The notes under the pieces are model-generated. The model did not search any database and had not been told where the DNA came from. It saw only the letters and a list, made by a program, of their open reading frames with translations. 64,000 nt of DNA from Petrimonas sp. GTDB lineage: Bacteria > Bacteroidota > Bacteroidia > Bacteroidales > Dysgonomonadaceae. Location of the stretch: positions 248,001 to 312,000 of the forward strand of contig DUNG01000023.1 in NCBI GenBank assembly GCA_012839475.1, written 5' to 3'. Within the stretch, counting starts at the first letter, position 1. Each line of letters starts with the position of its first letter. Made by a program: the position numbers and the translations under genes. Below, in pieces: positions 15,301-23,196 of this stretch.

Positions 15301-15410
15301 ATTTCCTCTTTTTCGCCTTTACATCAACTCTACATGTTTCATGTGGAGAAGGAGCTTCTTGTTAATTAGCCTATACGTTAATTTTTTAGTCGCCTGATTT
15401 AGAGAGTGTA

Positions 15411-15444
15411 AAAAAACAGACAAGCTATACGGAATCGGCTTGTC
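15411..15444 (-). terminator. Orphan minus-strand terminator-like hairpin
   Basis: The minus strand reads GACAAGC, a 12-base loop, GCTTGTC and then TG and seven T. This is a good intrinsic terminator, but there is no minus-strand gene to its right to terminate. It sits in the 243-base gap before the phosphate cluster. A short RNA running antisense to the leader of the DUF47 gene would explain it; without the T run on the plus strand it is not a terminator for the aspartokinase. Confidence 0.45.
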
Positions 15445-15544
15445 CACGAATTCCCCAAAACTGTTATTTTACACGATGGGAGCGTCGTCTCGAAGAAAAT
15501 CTTTTGTAATATTGCAAAAAATGAATTTAACTATTTAATAAGAT

Positions 15545-16189
15545 ATGTTTTTTAGCCGTACTAAAAAATCGATCGAGCTCATTGACGCGTTTCTAAACTG
15601 CGTGGATCAGGGCTTGCTCCTCTTCAAGGAGGGGGTGAAAAACTACCTCTACAACAATATGGAGCACTTCAATAACGACATCGTGCAGTTGGCCAACACC
15701 GAGAGGGAGTCTGACAAGCTTCGCCGGGAGATAGAAACCACCCTCTACATGCAATCGTTGATGCCCCAAGTGCGGGGGGATGTCATGCAGCTGCTGGAGG
15801 AGATGGACAACTTGATTGACCAGGCGAAAAAGAACCTGTTTCAGTTCGAGGTGGAGACGCCTCACATCCCTGCCGAGTTGATCTCTGACTTCATCCGTCT
15901 TACCCAGACATCGGTTTCGGCCGCCGAATCCACCATCCCCGCCGCTAAGTCCTACTTCAACGAGCCGGTCAACGTGAGCGAGAAGATTCACCGGGTCTAC
16001 TTCTACGAGAAGGAGACCGATATGCTGGCTGATATCATTCGTCGAAAGATTTTCAAGGAGATTCCCGGTTTAAGGCTCAGCGAAAAATTTCACCTGAGGT
16101 ATTTCACGCTGCATATCGAGAATATCTCAGACACCGCGGAGAAGGTAGCCGACCTGCTCTCCATCATGGCCATCAAACGAATCGTGTAA
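15545..16189 (+). CDS. DUF47 family PhoU-like phosphate transport accessory protein
   Basis: This 214-residue all-helical protein belongs to the TIGR00153/DUF47 family of PhoU-like proteins, which accompany PiT transporters. It has the pattern of short helices with acidic metal-binding motifs, for example ANTERESDKLRREIETTLY and FYEKETDMLADIIRRKIF, seen twice as in PhoU repeats. It would regulate the transporter encoded 10 bases downstream. No membrane segment is present. Confidence 0.9.
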   Translation: MFFSRTKKSIELIDAFLNCVDQGLLLFKEGVKNYLYNNMEHFNNDIVQLANTERESDKLRREIETTLYMQSLMPQVRGDVMQLLEEMDNLIDQAKKNLFQFEVETPHIPAELISDFIRLTQTSVSAAESTIPAAKSYFNEPVNVSEKIHRVYFYEKETDMLADIIRRKIFKEIPGLRLSEKFHLRYFTLHIENISDTAEKVADLLSIMAIKRIV

Positions 16190-16199
16190 AAAGTTAGCT

Positions 16200-17957
16200 A
16201 TGTTCGGGTATCTGTTTCTGATAAGTGGGTTGTTCTTGGGGTGGTCGTTGGGTGCGAACGACGCCTCCAACATCTTTGGAACGGCCGTAGGTACCCGGAT
16301 GGTTAAGTTCAGAACGGCCGCTATTATCGCGAGTATATTCGTGATACTGGGGGCGGTTATTCAAGGGTCTGGCACCACTGAAACATTGTCGCGGCTTGGC
16401 TCCGTGGATGCCGTGGGTGGTGCCTTCACGGTGGCCCTGTGCGCGGGCATCATCGTTACCTTCATGACTAAGTACCGCCTACCGGTCTCCACTGGACAGG
16501 CTATCGTGGGAGCCATTATCGGGTGGTGTTTTTACACGGCGACCCCCGTTGATTATAGCGTGCTGGTGAAGATACTGGGCTCTTGGGTTTTTGGCCCTAT
16601 TCTGGGCATGCTGTTCGGTTATGTCTTGTATATCCTCTTGCGTAAGTACATCCGTTCATCACGCATCCATATGCTGAAGATGGAGTCGATTATCCGGACC
16701 TCGTTAATCGTGGTCGGTGCATTTGCCGCGTACAGTCTGGGGGCTAACAACATCGCGAACGTGATGGGGGTCTTCGTCAATTCGTTTAACGTTTCTTTTA
16801 CCATTGGTTCGTTATACATCTCTTCTACCCGACTGCTCTTCTTCATCGGCTCCCTGGCCATTGCCCTGGGGATTTGCACCTACAGTAAAAAGGTGATCGA
16901 TACCGTGGGTAATGGTGTGTTGGCCATGACCCCCGAGATGGCCATCGTGGTGGTCTTGGCCCAAGCGCTGGTGCTGTTTGTCTTCTCCTCTACCTCCCTC
17001 TCTAACGCCCTGATGAGCATCGGCTTGCCAGCTATCCCACTGGTTCCCGTCTCCAGTACGCAGGTGTTAATTGGTGCCATAATCGGGGTGGGTTTGGTCA
17101 AGGGGGTGCAGGAACTTAAGCTGAAGATGGTGGGTGGCATCATGCTTGGCTGGATAACTACCCCCGTGCTCTCTGGTCTTTTTACCTTTATCAGTCTCTT
17201 TTTTGTCGAGAGGGTTTTCGGCATGCAAGTATCCATGAGAGAGACAGCCCTGGAATCGCTAGGGCAAGCCGAATCTTCGTTCGCATCTGTCGAGTACCAC
17301 ATGCCAACGACCAACGTCAACACCTTTTTCTTGGTTGCGACCATCGTCTTGCTGATCGGGCTACTCCTTTACACCTTTTTTGCACGTAAGAAGGCGTTAG
17401 AGAAGGCGCGGGCGGAAGGGCACCGCGAAGCCAAGAAGAAGTTGTTTAGTGACTACCAGAACGCTTTGAAAGAGATAGAGGTGAACACGGTGCAGCTGGA
17501 GAATACCACCTTGGCTACCCGGTTGGAGGAGAGGAAGAACCAACTAGTGACCTACTCGCTCAGTATAGGGGAGCAGCGCAAGTACCTGGAGAGCATCTCG
17601 GAGTCGATTGAGCAGGCCATCAAGGCCCCTACCCTTCAAGAGAAGAACCGGGTACTTAAAAACCAATTGACGGAGATTAAACAGCGGATGAGTTTCAAGG
17701 GTGAGGTGGACGAAATCTATCGCCAAGCGGAACAGGTCTACATGGAGTTCGTTGAAAAACTCGATAAAACCTTCCCGAAACTGACAAGCCGGGAGAAGGA
17801 GATCTTGGTCTTGTTGCGAATTGGCTTATCGTCGAAAGAGATGGCCCCCCTGCTCAATATATCCACCAAGAGCGTTGAGATTGCCCGTTACAGGTTACGT
17901 GCCAAGTTGGGCGTATCCAAGGACGAGACCCTAACTGATTTTATTAAATCGATGTAA
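16200..17957 (+). CDS. PiT inorganic phosphate transporter fused to a LuxR-type DNA-binding domain
   Basis: Residues 1 to about 395 form a PiT-family phosphate permease with the paired signatures GANDASN (18-24) and GANNIANVMG (181-190), the PVSTGQ and PVSSTQ motifs, and roughly ten membrane segments ending in TIVLLIGLLLYTFF. Residues about 396-520 are charged, helical and probably coiled. Residues about 526-585 are a LuxR/GerE helix-turn-helix: LTSREKEILVLLRIGLSSKE, then LLNISTKSVEIARYRLRAKL. Ordinary PiT proteins lack such a domain. The linker and HTH resemble the C-terminal module of the TPR-HTH regulators found in Bacteroidetes. I infer a membrane-bound protein that both carries phosphate and contacts DNA. 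There is no frameshift or stop between the two parts. Confidence 0.88.
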   Translation: MFGYLFLISGLFLGWSLGANDASNIFGTAVGTRMVKFRTAAIIASIFVILGAVIQGSGTTETLSRLGSVDAVGGAFTVALCAGIIVTFMTKYRLPVSTGQAIVGAIIGWCFYTATPVDYSVLVKILGSWVFGPILGMLFGYVLYILLRKYIRSSRIHMLKMESIIRTSLIVVGAFAAYSLGANNIANVMGVFVNSFNVSFTIGSLYISSTRLLFFIGSLAIALGICTYSKKVIDTVGNGVLAMTPEMAIVVVLAQALVLFVFSSTSLSNALMSIGLPAIPLVPVSSTQVLIGAIIGVGLVKGVQELKLKMVGGIMLGWITTPVLSGLFTFISLFFVERVFGMQVSMRETALESLGQAESSFASVEYHMPTTNVNTFFLVATIVLLIGLLLYTFFARKKALEKARAEGHREAKKKLFSDYQNALKEIEVNTVQLENTTLATRLEERKNQLVTYSLSIGEQRKYLESISESIEQAIKAPTLQEKNRVLKNQLTEIKQRMSFKGEVDEIYRQAEQVYMEFVEKLDKTFPKLTSREKEILVLLRIGLSSKEMAPLLNISTKSVEIARYRLRAKLGVSKDETLTDFIKSM

Positions 17958-17985: not shown

Positions 17986-19362
17986 ATGAGAAGAATGAAA
18001 ATGTTTCTGTTTCTGGTGCTTTTTGCCACGGGTTCCGTGTTAGCACAGGAGAAGGAGGTAAAGTACGACCAGTATGGTATGGAGGTGAAGTGGACCGACC
18101 TGAAGGCTGAAATGCAAGATGGGAGGCTCGTTTTCGAGACGGAGGATGGCAACTACAAGTTGTGGTACGATGTCCGCATACAAGCTGATTTTGCCAGTTT
18201 CTTCGGAATCGATAAGGATTACGATCCCATTGGGAATGGGGCGAGTATCCGTCGTGCTCGCTTTGCGGTAAAGGCGCAACTGACTCCCGACTGGTATGGT
18301 GAGATTGATATTGACATGGCTAACGGGTTTCCCGAGCTGAAAGATGCGGTGCTTCGTTACGACGGGATCAAGAACGTGGAGATACAGGTGGGTAATTTCA
18401 AGGAGAACTTCTCGATGCAGAGGAACACTTCCTCCCGTTTCCTCCAGTTCATGGAGAGGCCGATGGTGACCTACCTGGCACCCTCCCGGCACCTAGGCGC
18501 TAATATTAAGTACTGTGTTCCAGTCTTCTGGGCATCCGGAGGTCTCTTTTTTCAGGAGGTGGCGGGAATCGAAGAGATTGAGAACGTGCAGGACAACAAC
18601 AAGGATTACGGTCGTGGACCGGGTTATTCGCTTACCGGTAAGATGGTCTTGCGTCCCTTTAACAAGCGCATTGACCGCGGGTTGCATATAGGGGGAGCTA
18701 TCTCCTACCGGACCCCAAAGTCGCACGATGCACCAAGTGACTTTGGGGGCATGCGGTTCAGTACCCGGAATTCCACCTCCATTAACCGAAAGAAGTATCT
18801 CGATACCGACGTGGTGAAAGGGGTGGACCACTCTCTCCTTTACACCGCCGAATTGGCGGGTCACTATAAGGGGCTGCGTGTGGAGACAGCCTATATAGGG
18901 ACTACCCTCTACATGAAAGATGATGCCCCGGGTAACCTGAACAACAAGCACTTTGGAGGCTGGTACGCGCAAGCGGGTTACCTGCTGTTCGGAGGTACGC
19001 AACGGTACGATTACTGGGGAGCCAAGTACAACCGGGCCGAGCGAGGCAAGAAGTGGGGTGACGTGGAATTGACCGCCCGGTATGAATGTCTTAACCTGAA
19101 TGACTTTGACGGGGGCGTGTACGGTGGCGCCGGAGAGGCATTTGCCGTGGGGCTGAACTACTGGGTGAACAACAACGTCAAGTTCATGCTCAACTATCAG
19201 TATAACAATAACGATCGTTATGCCAACGGTAAAGGTAAGCACTTTATCGGACACGACGCTGCCGGTAATCCGACAAAAGATTACACGCAGGCGGTGGAAG
19301 CAAAAGGGAAGGGCGGAGCAGACCATAGCATGGTGGCCCTGCGTTGTGAAGTGGTATTTTAG
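17986..19362 (+). CDS. Phosphate-selective porin O/P (OprP-like)
   Basis: This 458-residue protein has a signal peptide ending in GSVLAQ and then a beta-barrel rich in aromatic and charged strands. The pattern ASIRRARFAVKAQLTPDWYG, VGNFKENFSMQ and SSRFLQFMERPMV is typical of the porin O/P family that passes phosphate or polyphosphate across the outer membrane. The C-terminus ends in a phenylalanine (LRCEVVF), as expected for BAM-assembled barrels. It lies 28 bases after the transporter, which supports phosphate as the substrate. Confidence 0.88.
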   Translation: MRRMKMFLFLVLFATGSVLAQEKEVKYDQYGMEVKWTDLKAEMQDGRLVFETEDGNYKLWYDVRIQADFASFFGIDKDYDPIGNGASIRRARFAVKAQLTPDWYGEIDIDMANGFPELKDAVLRYDGIKNVEIQVGNFKENFSMQRNTSSRFLQFMERPMVTYLAPSRHLGANIKYCVPVFWASGGLFFQEVAGIEEIENVQDNNKDYGRGPGYSLTGKMVLRPFNKRIDRGLHIGGAISYRTPKSHDAPSDFGGMRFSTRNSTSINRKKYLDTDVVKGVDHSLLYTAELAGHYKGLRVETAYIGTTLYMKDDAPGNLNNKHFGGWYAQAGYLLFGGTQRYDYWGAKYNRAERGKKWGDVELTARYECLNLNDFDGGVYGGAGEAFAVGLNYWVNNNVKFMLNYQYNNNDRYANGKGKHFIGHDAAGNPTKDYTQAVEAKGKGGADHSMVALRCEVVF

Positions 19363-19393: not shown

Positions 19394-20233
19394 ATGAAAA
19401 CTAAGATAATAACAGCAATCGCTCTCGCGCTTGTGCTGCTGGGCGTATCGTGCGTTGAAGACGAAATGTACCGTGGCCCGGCAAACATATCAAAAATTGA
19501 GTTTACGCCTTCAGCCGTAACGACTGCCGACGATGTGACCGTGGTGGTGACCGTAACCGACTTGCAGGGTGTTACCTCCGTGAAACTTCAATATAAGGTG
19601 AATGGTGGCTCACAAACCGAGCTGAATATGACAAAGGGGAGTGGCGATACTTACTCCGCCGTTATCCCGAAACAGGCTGATAAAGCGGTCGTTACGTTCG
19701 TCGTGGTAGCCAATAACGAGGTGGGTATTCCCGCTACATCCAGCGAGCAGTCCTACACGGTGGGGGCTGCCCCGGTGGACTTCGCGAACCTGGTGTTGAA
19801 CGAGATTGACGGCAACAGTAAGTCGATTGAGCTCTACAACAAGGGAACGGTACCCATTCCGCTCGAAGGGGTAAAGTTGATTAAGGATAATAACGACGAT
19901 AGTAACCCCTGGTGGCAGGGCGTTGCAGAAAACGGCTCGATACCCGCCGATGGCTATATCGTGATCATACAAAACAACCCGGACAACCCTCTCTTGTCGG
20001 GTAATGCAGGTATATCCGCGAAGAAGTGCTTGAGGTTCGAGTTGAAATCGGCTGCCGGTGTCAGCTTAGGTGTCTTCTTGCGCGGTGATGAGGCGAATCT
20101 AGGCAAGAATATCAGTGATACGGCGCCCAAATCGTTCCAGAGGATACCCAACGGGACGGGCGACTGGAAGTTAGCCGATCCGACTAACGGGAGCAAGAAT
20201 CCGGATACGGGCGACCCCATTCCTCAGGAGTAA
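19394..20233 (+). CDS. Lipoprotein with lamin-tail domain
   Basis: This 279-residue protein has a lipoprotein signal (LLGVSC, cysteine at about residue 20). A beta-sandwich of the Ig type follows (residues about 30-125). A lamin-tail domain comes next, recognisable by VLNEIDGNSKSIELYNKG, a PLEGVKLI strand and ADGYIVII. Lamin-tail domains in bacteria occur in secreted nucleases and surface proteins and probably bind ligands or DNA. It closes the phosphate cluster, so capture of a phosphate-bearing polymer is a possible role, but this is inference. Confidence 0.82.
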   Translation: MKTKIITAIALALVLLGVSCVEDEMYRGPANISKIEFTPSAVTTADDVTVVVTVTDLQGVTSVKLQYKVNGGSQTELNMTKGSGDTYSAVIPKQADKAVVTFVVVANNEVGIPATSSEQSYTVGAAPVDFANLVLNEIDGNSKSIELYNKGTVPIPLEGVKLIKDNNDDSNPWWQGVAENGSIPADGYIVIIQNNPDNPLLSGNAGISAKKCLRFELKSAAGVSLGVFLRGDEANLGKNISDTAPKSFQRIPNGTGDWKLADPTNGSKNPDTGDPIPQE

Positions 20234-20461: not shown

Positions 20462-21106
20462 ATGAGTAATGAGAAATTGGAGATCGGCCAAATATCGAAA
20501 CCCAGGTTCGAGTTTCGCTCGTTTGGGCGTTGCTTTCGTGATGCGGCAGCGAGGATGGCTCGTCTTTCCGTCCCTGTACCGGAAGCGGTATGGGAGCGGC
20601 ACAGTAGCGAGATCTACATCGTGAGCCGTACTAACGATGTGAATAACACCAAGATACGCGATGGCAAAATGGATATCAAGACGTACGTGCAGACGGTGGA
20701 TGGCCTTGAGCAATGGAACCCACTGATGAAGGGCGACTTCCCCATGGCGGCCAGTGTGCTCAGCGAAAAGGTGTTCCCTGCTTTCATGGTGGATAACCTA
20801 CCCAAGTTAACCCAGGAGCGTTACACCTTGGAGGAGTTCCTGGAGATGGTGGAGCAGCATCCCGACCTGCAGGCGGTGGTGGTGGAAAAGGTGCGGTACG
20901 GCTACATGGTTAACGATACCATCTGCGAAACGGGTGAGGTCTACATTAACGGGGCTATGGTGAAAACCATCAACTCAGAGTCGACCGAGGTTGAGGATGT
21001 GCTAAAGACCATCAGGGAGGTGGGACTCGAAGGGGTTGAGAACATAAACTACCTGCAAGTGATCAAGCGGGTGATAGGAATGATCAACAAACCGCTGGCA
21101 AATTAA
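20462..21106 (+). CDS. Uncharacterised protein, probably a divergent CYTH-like fold
   Basis: This 214-residue protein has no membrane segment or signal peptide. I do not recognise a named family with certainty. Several parts recall the CYTH tunnel fold: an N-terminal FEFRSFG strand, EIYIVSRTNDVNNTKIRDGK followed by MDIKTYV, and a second half with EKVRYGYMVN and EVYING. These resemble the R-x-R and K-rich strands of triphosphate tunnel enzymes. It lies 6 bases before a clear CYTH gene, which fits a related origin. I chose ATG 20462 (MSNEKLEIGQ) because the longer frame starts in non-conserved sequence. Function is unknown. Confidence 0.6.
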   Translation: MSNEKLEIGQISKPRFEFRSFGRCFRDAAARMARLSVPVPEAVWERHSSEIYIVSRTNDVNNTKIRDGKMDIKTYVQTVDGLEQWNPLMKGDFPMAASVLSEKVFPAFMVDNLPKLTQERYTLEEFLEMVEQHPDLQAVVVEKVRYGYMVNDTICETGEVYINGAMVKTINSESTEVEDVLKTIREVGLEGVENINYLQVIKRVIGMINKPLAN

Positions 21107-21112
21107 TAGGCT

Positions 21113-21595
21113 ATGGCATTAGAGATTGAGAGAAAATTTCTGGTCAATTCCGGGGCTTTCAAGCAGGAGGCGGCTAGGCAAACGCGTATCGTACAGGGTT
21201 ACTTGTCATCGGTACCGGAGCGTACCGTAAGGGTGCGGGTGAAAGACGATAAAGGGTTCCTCACCATAAAGGGGATGGGGAGCGCGAGCGGAGCATCCCG
21301 CTACGAGTGGGAGAAAGAGATCCCCTTGGTTGAGGCGGAGGAACTGTTGGCTATCTGTGAACCGGGTGTGATCGATAAAACCCGTTACGAGGTTGAATCG
21401 GGTCCCTTCACCTTTGAAGTGGACGAGTTTTATGGTGACAACGAGGGCTTGATACTCGCCGAAATAGAACTGCCGAGTGAGGACACATCGTTTGACAGAC
21501 CTGAATGGTTGGGACGCGAGGTGACCGGTGACCCCAGCTACTACAATTCGATGTTGATGAAACATCCCTACAGCCAATGGGAACAGACCAAATGA
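21113..21595 (+). CDS. CYTH domain protein (triphosphate tunnel metalloenzyme)
   Basis: This 160-residue protein starts with MALEIERKFLV, containing the ExExK metal-binding motif of CYTH proteins. The basic strands ERTVRVRVKDDKGFLTIKG and DKTRYEV and the acidic strand FEVDEFYGDNEGLILAEIEL complete the tunnel. Single-domain bacterial CYTH proteins of this kind hydrolyse tripolyphosphate or nucleoside triphosphates. Its stop overlaps the start of the downstream permease by four bases (ATGA), which shows translational coupling. Confidence 0.92.
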   Translation: MALEIERKFLVNSGAFKQEAARQTRIVQGYLSSVPERTVRVRVKDDKGFLTIKGMGSASGASRYEWEKEIPLVEAEELLAICEPGVIDKTRYEVESGPFTFEVDEFYGDNEGLILAEIELPSEDTSFDRPEWLGREVTGDPSYYNSMLMKHPYSQWEQTK

Positions 21596-23196
21596 ACGAG
21601 ATGAAGAGAGAGAAGCATTTCGATCCGCTCGATATGAACAATTACCGCATCGAGCGGTTGCCGACGTTAAAAAAGTCAGGTTTCGAGCGATGGATGTCTA
21701 TCATTGGTATTCCCCTCGCCATTTTCGCTTTCGTTTATATCTATTGGTTCGCCCAGATCCCTTTCCTCGACACCTTTGATGTGTCACTGTTGGGGAAAGA
21801 GTCGGCTTCACGGTTCACCGAGCTAGGTGCCGAGGGCTTCTCCAGGATTAATTACGCGATGTTGGCCATCTTCGCTGCTTCCATAATTCTGTGGATTACC
21901 GAGCCCATCCCCAACTACCTCACCTCTTTGGTGTTGATTCTCGCTGTGGTGCTTACCGGCGTAACTACTGAGCGGACAGCCTACGCGCAATTGGGGCACC
22001 CGGTGATGTGGCTTAATATCCTCTCCTTCGTGTTGGCGAGCATGCTGGTAAAAACGCAGGTGGCCAAACGGTTTGCCTTGTGGTTCGTGATCAGGTTCGG
22101 GAAAAACGCGACTATGATCATCTTCAGTTTCATGGTCATTAATATCGTCCTATCGGCGTTTATCTCGGCTACCACGGCCAAGGCCACCATCCTGCTTCCC
22201 ATTTTCATGGTTATCGCGGCCATCTACGGGGCAACGGGTGGCGATAATCGCAACAACTTCGGGCGTAACCTGGTCCTTCAAAACCTGTTCCAAATCAATA
22301 TTGGCGCATCGGGTTTCATCACCGGGTCGGGGGCCAATCTACTGGCTGGAGCTTTGATTGCCGGGGCTATGGGGTGGGGTGTTTTCAGCTACCAGGACTG
22401 GTTCGTGGCTGCCTTCCCGTTGGCTATCATATTGATGGTAATCGGATGGTTCGTCGGTACTAAGCTGATCTTCCCACTTAAAAAGGGCGAGGATCGTCCC
22501 CAGATTGAGGGGGGTATCGACCGCTTAAAGGAGGAGTTGGCCAAGCTGGGTAAGATGAAGCCGGAGGAGTTCAAGGCGATTGCCATTTTCGTGGCGGTCC
22601 TTGCGCTGTGGGCTACCGATAAGCAGCATGGTATTAGTCAGACCGCTGTCGCATTCCTGGGGGCCGTGGTGGCCCTGCTCCCCAAGGTGGGTATCGTGAA
22701 GTGGAATGACGTGGATATTCCCTGGCACTTGCTGCTCTTCTCGGCGGGCGCGTACACGTTGGGTGCCGGGTTGGATGCTACCAACCTGCCGGGTACGATG
22801 ATCGATGCCCTTTTCACCCGTTTAGGGATCACCGTGGATACCCCCTACTGGGTGCTCTTCTTTATTCTTACCGGCACCATGCTCTTCTCGGCACTGATCT
22901 TCCAGAGCAAGACGATGCGGACGCTTATCTTCGTGCCGATAGCGATAGGGGTGGCCCAGCGTTTCAACCTACCGATACTGAGTCTCGCTTTCCCCGTGGC
23001 CCTGTTGATCGAGCACGTGTACGTGTTGCCGTTTAATAGCAAGCCCGCGGCCCTGTTGTACGCTACCGACCACTATAGTTGGAGTGACACCTTTAAGTTC
23101 GGTATTACTATGATGTTGATAGGCTGGGTGATGATCATGGTATGGGGCGAGACAGTGCTCAAATGGTTGGGTTACACGAGTGGGGTCTTTTTCTAA
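21592..23196 (+). CDS. SLC13/DASS family anion permease
   Basis: This permease has about 12 hydrophobic segments after a soluble N-terminus of about 40 residues. The DASS family moves sulfate, phosphate or di- and tricarboxylates with sodium. The paired sodium-site motifs appear as SATTAKATILLPIF and, near the C-terminus, LPFNSKPAALLYATD. I chose ATG 21592, which overlaps the CYTH stop as ATGA, giving 534 residues. The neighbouring CYTH and phosphate genes suggest phosphate or polyphosphate-linked anions, but the substrate cannot be read from the sequence. Confidence 0.87.
   Translation: MNEMKREKHFDPLDMNNYRIERLPTLKKSGFERWMSIIGIPLAIFAFVYIYWFAQIPFLDTFDVSLLGKESASRFTELGAEGFSRINYAMLAIFAASIILWITEPIPNYLTSLVLILAVVLTGVTTERTAYAQLGHPVMWLNILSFVLASMLVKTQVAKRFALWFVIRFGKNATMIIFSFMVINIVLSAFISATTAKATILLPIFMVIAAIYGATGGDNRNNFGRNLVLQNLFQINIGASGFITGSGANLLAGALIAGAMGWGVFSYQDWFVAAFPLAIILMVIGWFVGTKLIFPLKKGEDRPQIEGGIDRLKEELAKLGKMKPEEFKAIAIFVAVLALWATDKQHGISQTAVAFLGAVVALLPKVGIVKWNDVDIPWHLLLFSAGAYTLGAGLDATNLPGTMIDALFTRLGITVDTPYWVLFFILTGTMLFSALIFQSKTMRTLIFVPIAIGVAQRFNLPILSLAFPVALLIEHVYVLPFNSKPAALLYATDHYSWSDTFKFGITMMLIGWVMIMVWGETVLKWLGYTSGVFF

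Follow-up and report, generated by a model that had tools for sequence, protein, structure and literature searches.

Several bacterial transporters double as sensors. The published examples that we located signal through kinases or through partner proteins (PMC5764959, PMC13022988, PMC5936718). CbrA of Pseudomonas combines an SLC5 transporter, a STAC domain and a histidine kinase (PMC13022988, PMC7096432), and Ks-Amt5 joins an ammonium transporter domain to a histidine kinase, a re-use as sensor in which transport was lost (PMC5764959). In Escherichia coli, the membrane-bound, DNA-binding CadC activates its target operon under the control of the permease LysP (PMC5936718). In Staphylococcus aureus, the effect of a pitA mutation is gone once pitR is inactivated, and a two-hybrid contact between PitR and PitA was not seen (PMC11705898). 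Across the titles and opening parts of abstracts listed in searches of the open-access literature, a set that leaves subscription papers mostly outside, we found no PiT-LuxR fusion and no other transporter fused to a DNA-binding domain.

Here we describe such a fusion, encoded in a 64,000-nucleotide stretch of a Petrimonas sp. genome (the window; the genome is labelled G000). From comparison of related loci, we consider it probable that the protein is a one-polypeptide transceptor-regulator, which would sense phosphate or a related oxyanion and activate its own operon.

The fusion protein and its gene cluster

The initial annotation of the window described a PiT permease that continues without a stop into a LuxR-type helix-turn-helix (HTH), and this description holds. 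The reading frame is single and free of internal stops, and both domains score above the curated Pfam cut-offs: PHO4 at residues 18–328 (E 8.5e-64; 216.1 bits, cut-off 33.7) and GerE near the C-terminus (E 3.5e-10; 39.8 bits, cut-off 23.5). Paired signature motifs, which we take to be those of PiT proteins, occur in both PiT repeats (GANDASN, PVSTGQ, GANNIAN and PVSSTQ), and the longer GANNIANVMG can also be read. Transporter and putative output domain share one polypeptide, the architecture of a transceptor. Of six relatives scanned for GerE, L017 scores only 20.5, which is under the cut-off, and L032 gives no match.

The linker-HTH part aligns with the BT3442 family model NF053779 (residues 379–575; E 7.2e-5), at 21.7 bits against a cut-off of 940. 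As the initial annotation held, this module also ends other proteins, e.g., L009–L012 (open frames of 962–977 aa) and L088 (740 aa).

The fusion gene is the second of seven genes on the same strand, separated by gaps of 10, 28, 31, 228, 6 and -19 bp (Table 1). The LTD protein is ∼500–840 aa long in many relatives, where several LTDs are common, compared with 279 aa in the window; five that were scanned carry one to five LTD stretches. The 214-aa protein encoded at 20462–21106 is strongly conserved, with 69–83% identity in eight of 10 aligned relatives. A Pfam search with it gave nothing significant (best E 0.081, under the cut-off), and a role as second CYTH-type enzyme was dropped after profile comparison (probability 0.2%). 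It occurs in two tandem copies in G443 and G654, and diverged copies adjoin some PiT-only genes (G215b, G181 and G284).

Table 1. Features of the fusion locus, in window coordinates
Feature	Position	Strand	Description
Related copy 11 bp upstream of site A	15316-15325	+	CCTTTACATC; 11.4 bits
Candidate operator site A	15327-15336	+	ACTCTACATG; 14.5 bits
Candidate site B	15370-15379	+	CCTATACGTT; 43 bp past A; weak, 5.3 bits
Candidate site C	15424-15433	+	GCTATACGGA; 54 bp past B; weak, 3.0 bits
-7-box-like element	15507-15514	+	TAATATTG; one base off TAnnTTTG; 82 bp past site C
PhoU_div/DUF47 protein	15545-16189	+	First gene of cluster; 214 aa; PF01865, 9e-23
PiT-HTH fusion protein	16200-17957	+	585 aa; PF01384 and PF00196
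PiT core	16200-17216	+	Residues 1–339; ten membrane helices, assigned from model and loop charge
Added membrane helix	17316-17393	+	∼Residues 373–398, between core and cytoplasmic part
Charged helical linker	17394-17699	+	∼Residues 399–500; long predicted helices
LuxR/GerE HTH	17778-17939	+	Residues 527–580; PF00196; 1yio, 7vim and 3clo by profile
Porin_O_P outer-membrane porin	17986-19362	+	458 aa; PF07396, 5.1e-33
Lamin-tail-domain (LTD) protein	19394-20233	+	279 aa; LTD 33 bits, cut-off 34.3
Conserved protein, family not assigned	20462-21106	+	214 aa
CYTH-domain protein	21113-21595	+	160 aa; PF01928, 6.2e-15
DASS-family sodium:anion symporter	21577-23196	+	539 aa; PF00939, 9e-55; TIGR00785, 5.6e-62, above cut-off

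The best NCBIfam transporter model for the fusion is the CysP sulfate permease (73 bits, cut-off 400); PitA scores 23 bits (cut-off 800). Both scores lie far under their cut-offs, and we therefore deduce the substrate from the neighbouring genes. The same mechanism with another oxyanion, such as sulfate, would agree with the lead of CysP over PitA and with the DASS-family neighbour. However, neither score approaches its cut-off, and the PhoU_div, Porin_O_P and CYTH neighbours point by their family names to phosphate compounds. We therefore regard a different oxyanion as unlikely and favour phosphate as the putative ligand.

Distribution of the fusion

The fusion is real and old. First noted in one sequence, it recurs in five genomes of the window's genus and in many families of the order. 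Among 101 genomes of the family, full-length fusions are confined to those five, and four other genomes match by the linker-HTH part only. The four further genus proteins are 584–588 aa long and share 92, 93, 76 and 72% identity with the window protein; of the four genomes, G054 is assembled as one contig. When 39 genomes of the genus were searched with PF01384, five likewise had the fusion's PiT; of the other 34, 29 have other PHO4 genes (mostly in ∼750–790 aa frames) and five have no match. The window's genome also has a second PHO4 gene (L001–L003; G000:C13:5383-6762), with an open frame of 758 aa, the long type common in much of the genus.

At E 1e-30, a profile built from five fusions has matches in 42 of 393 genomes searched in the order. 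In 24 of them the match runs from the core through the HTH; G174, one of these 24, has an internal stop, its fusion gene (L022/L050) being split by a frame break. A search of 395 genomes of the class gave three matches: the window's own, a full-length fusion outside the order (G654) and a PiT-only protein (G624). The full set comprised 48 loci and reached into many further families of the order; the HTH module is present at 33 of them, decayed in one case, and missing from 15. Two of the genomes with the module, G054 and G322, consist of a single contig each. Since the loci were picked by profile matches to the fusion, these counts describe the sample and not natural frequencies; many of the genomes are in hundreds of contigs.

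On a tree of PiT core and PhoU_div sequences (48 rows), the HTH state changes eight times, compared with 13.7 times in shuffles. Within the genus the fusion is patchy (5 of 39 genomes), and G416, which belongs to another family, nests in the genus clade. Horizontal transfer involving G416 (L015/L044) is possible.

A candidate operator upstream of the cluster

The cluster opens with the PhoU_div gene, which is preceded by direct repeats of CWMTACAW, ∼43 and 54–56 bp apart. In this upstream region, the 32 fused loci have 53 forward copies of the word CWMTACA (4.5 expected; 27 of the 32 loci) and six reverse copies; the 14 unfused loci have one forward (0.6 expected) and two reverse occurrences. 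These counts are without G470 and G446, where the PhoU_div gene was not read, and keep G405 despite only 96 bp of upstream sequence. A 16-bp matrix built from 81 sites has the consensus taAaCTCTACATtaat. In four-fold cross-validation it recovered 72 held-out sites in 30 of the 32 fused loci (8.6 expected from single-base shuffles) and five sites in the 14 unfused loci. Sites above 10 bits have a density of 0.0069/bp upstream versus 0.00012/bp elsewhere in the same 32 loci.

The spacings between sites cluster at 42–43, 54–56 and 96–98 bp, with 11 bp in six cases. Of the 32 fused loci, 25 have pairs at these spacings (0.10 expected from shuffles; none on the reverse strand), compared with none of 14 unfused loci (0.03 expected). 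In the other seven fused loci (G000, G072, G185, G296, G322, G393 and G405), no two sites above 7 bits lie at these spacings. Both the matrix and the spacings were derived from the fused loci, and a split-half test by clade (31 fused loci, G393 left out; unsupervised seed) served as a check on that. Each half gave CTCTACA as its top word, spaced pairs were recovered in 8/16 and 10/15 held-out loci (0.03 and 0.04 expected), and the two matrices found a spaced pair in 1/14 and 0/14 unfused loci.

The window has a single strong match, site A. Sites B and C keep the spacing (43 and 54 bp) and end in TACG, and the A-B-C triple scores 22.9, compared with a maximum of -1.8 in 20 shuffles. The initial annotation had proposed the 15301–15544 region as a binding target; the conserved direct repeats of fused loci fall within it, which makes it a plausible one. 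By eye, site A lies in G054 and G071 inside an inverted repeat with a run of Ts after it (15316–15350 in the window), terminator-like for the upstream gene.

TAnnTTTG is the Bacteroides -7 consensus (as given in PMC7366714). It occurs within 100 bp of the start in 22/32 fused and 4/14 unfused loci. With one looser base and a site threshold of 3 bits, a -7-like box lies 58–82 bp beyond a site in 26 of 32 fused loci, at 58–59 bp in four, 65–69 bp in 16, 75 bp in one and 79–82 bp in five; these are raw counts, without shuffle control, from a search confined to distances of 55–85 bp. A position of the sites upstream of a putative promoter suggests an activator.

Another regulator (e.g., a PhoB-like protein) might bind these repeats instead, with the fused HTH having other targets or only a modulating role. 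In the genus clade, site A is a doublet at 11-bp spacing, as in PhoB-type boxes, which have this spacing, and binding of the repeats by the fused HTH is itself a predicted step. Against such a regulator, the motif is not supported as a general Pho box: around 10 PstS matches in seven genomes (two of them weak; flanks of ∼1.5 kb), none of the sites above 10 bits is both upstream and in gene orientation, and three single opposite-strand sites upstream of PstS (L103, L105 and L111) come close to the background rate. A search for the spaced triple in 32 fusion genomes gave six hits (four at this locus, two elsewhere) and two control hits; elsewhere it is thus no commoner than the control. Moreover, the repeats are absent from G116, which has the porin but no HTH, and from G393, with its decayed HTH. 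We consider a separate regulator rather improbable, and the fused HTH the better candidate for the protein that binds the repeats. The 11-bp doublet was also tried as a genome-wide site and rejected, with two hits versus six for the reversed pattern in 12 genomes; the pattern searched does not fit the window's own doublet.

Co-occurrence of HTH, repeats and porin

The porin gene downstream had been suggested as a possible target, and its distribution is consistent with this role. Among 44 loci, 29 have both HTH and porin, 13 have neither, and each is found alone once: the HTH, decayed, in G393, and the porin in G116. (Four loci at contig ends, G366, G244, G357 and G289, are left out, and absence of the porin in G446 and G480 is based on only ∼1.9 and 1.6 kb of downstream DNA.) In independent tree pairs, HTH and porin change in the same direction in 3.9/4 (none opposite; p 0.125), or in 4.8/5 (p 0.0625) if G393 is scored as HTH-negative. 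This trend is consistent but not significant by itself because the pairs are so few. The corresponding values for HTH and spaced pairs are 5/5 (p 0.0625) and, with G393 scored as HTH-negative, 5.8/6 (median p 0.031). All of these tree-based tests have few pairs and mostly miss p 0.05.

Separate decay of the two halves

In 26 of the 30 full-length fused proteins, conservation is higher in the PiT core than in the HTH (identity and charge tables are without G174, G357 and G470), and those 26 keep the four PiT motifs apart from small variants, e.g., GSNDA. In four lineages, the PiT part is altered while the HTH is intact and the seven-gene cluster is kept. Only G322 has lost all four motifs. It has no PHO4 match at E 0.01 in Pfam, and its GerE match stays at 8e-8; our own PiT profile still matches it (1.1e-21), and its structural model, guided by aligned fused proteins, resembles 6l85 (6.4e-6). 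In G416, G296 and G395, the first PiT motif is altered and the others are largely kept. The median ratio of PiT to HTH identity is 0.38 in G322, 0.84 in G395, 0.91 in G296 and 0.98 in G416, whereas it ranges from 1.08 to 1.36 in 25 further fusions and reaches 1.68 in G393. G416, G395 and G322 each keep two or more strong sites, and G296 keeps one; neither G322 nor G296 has a pair at the common spacings, the two sites of G322 being 33 bp apart. In G393, the HTH no longer matches GerE, and repeats and porin are absent. G116, with its porin but no HTH, lacks the repeats as well, and its first PiT motif is altered too.

That G322, G416, G296 and G395 keep HTH and operon despite lost or altered PiT motifs suggests that binding or conformation could suffice as the signal, with no need for transport. 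The PiT part of G322 is now probably a sensor or an anchor that no longer transports. The initial annotation had envisaged a sensor that couples phosphate flux to transcription. Genome comparison favours the one-protein sensor, acting on its own cluster, and suggests that the flux itself may be dispensable.

The PiT part could alternatively be a mere anchor or tether that brings the operon to the membrane, with no sensing role. The loss of all four motifs in G322, where HTH and gene cluster stay, would fit this, but a mere anchor would not need the kept motifs and the higher conservation of the core seen in 26 of 30 proteins. We think a pure anchor improbable, and a sensory PiT core the better reading of this conservation.

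For the whole set of loci, we are evenly divided on a wider interpretation: that an order-wide family of transporters acts directly as transcription factors on a multi-site operator of its own, and that it can be caught evolving from transporter to membrane sensor and, elsewhere, to plain transporter once the HTH is lost. The change from transporter to sensor, clear in G322 and begun in G416, G296 and G395, belongs to that interpretation, and may or may not be the right account of these lineages with about equal likelihood.

Fold and membrane topology

An AlphaFold2 model of the fusion (pLDDT 78.9, pTM 0.57) has a helical membrane core followed by a long helix from residue 373. Its best Foldseek match is PDB 6l85_A (E 1.9e-12; TM-score 0.47 by query and 0.67 by target), which is also the best PDB match by sequence profile (2.4e-37), in keeping with a PiT fold. 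We take this entry to be Thermotoga TmPiT, a PiT/SLC20 phosphate transporter.

As means over 30 fused proteins, the core loops 30–38, 89–97, 147–163, 226–245 and 300–309 have a positive net charge and the loops between them are negative or near zero; past the core the net charge is -1.0, and beyond the added helix it is +2.5. A hydrophobic segment lies between core and HTH in all 30 full-length fused proteins and in two of 14 readable unfused ones (G376 and G391). The alternating loop charge and the added helix together predict that the HTH is on the cytoplasmic side, and the added helix would be what makes this placement possible. With 11 assigned helices and a C-terminal LuxR-type HTH, the protein falls outside the ToxR-like membrane one-component class (bitopic, with periplasmic sensor and winged HTH); it would work like those regulators without being a member.

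Proteolysis that frees the HTH as a soluble factor would be compatible with the variable, low-confidence stretch at residues 350–373 of the model, ahead of the added helix. However, this stretch is predicted to be periplasmic, and CadC acts uncleaved (PMC5936718), so we hold release by proteolysis to be very improbable and a membrane-tethered HTH to be the better model.

A model for regulation

We propose that the inner-membrane PiT core reports phosphate, or a related oxyanion, through its conformation, and that the added membrane helix and the helical linker pass this state to the cytoplasmic LuxR-type HTH. The membrane-tethered HTH, probably dimeric, would bind the direct repeats ahead of PhoU_div and activate, rather than repress, the promoter of its own, presumably co-transcribed cluster (PhoU_div, PiT-HTH, porin, LTD, 214-aa, CYTH and DASS proteins), with any role of the PhoU_div protein conjectural. 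An artefact of assembly or frameshift, a doubt raised by the initial annotation, is refuted for practical purposes: one relative (G174) has a broken frame, but nothing comparable is seen in the window, whose frame is open, the fusion is full-length in four further genus genomes, and the HTH module is found in 33 loci, including those of the single-contig genomes G054 and G322.

Comparison with known systems

The fusion shares fold and motifs with PiT/SLC20 transporters (6l85), to which it adds a helix, a linker and an HTH. It shares the linker-HTH with BT3442-family regulators (NF053779) and differs from them in its N-terminal part.

Among transporter-sensors, Ks-Amt5 shows the re-use as sensor with loss of transport that we infer for G322, in an Amt-family protein with a kinase output, unlike the PiT-HTH (PMC5764959). 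The natural series of intact proteins, decayed PiT parts and decayed or lost HTHs provides built-in controls for telling a transport signal from one that needs binding alone.

CbrA likewise has transporter and signalling domain in one chain, but it signals through a kinase and a response regulator that is a separate protein, whereas the putative output of the fusion is its own DNA-binding domain, on a PiT-family transporter (PMC13022988, PMC7096432). CadC resembles the fusion, on the reading proposed here, as a membrane-bound DNA-binding activator under permease control. However, CadC and LysP are two proteins, whereas the fusion joins permease and HTH in one; and CadC crosses the membrane with a single helix, senses on the periplasmic side and has its winged HTH at the N-terminus, whereas the HTH of the fusion is C-terminal and of the LuxR type (PMC5936718). 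Sensing, membrane passage and DNA binding appear to be joined in one chain here, so that one protein together with one promoter would suffice for testing the connection between substrate and promoter.
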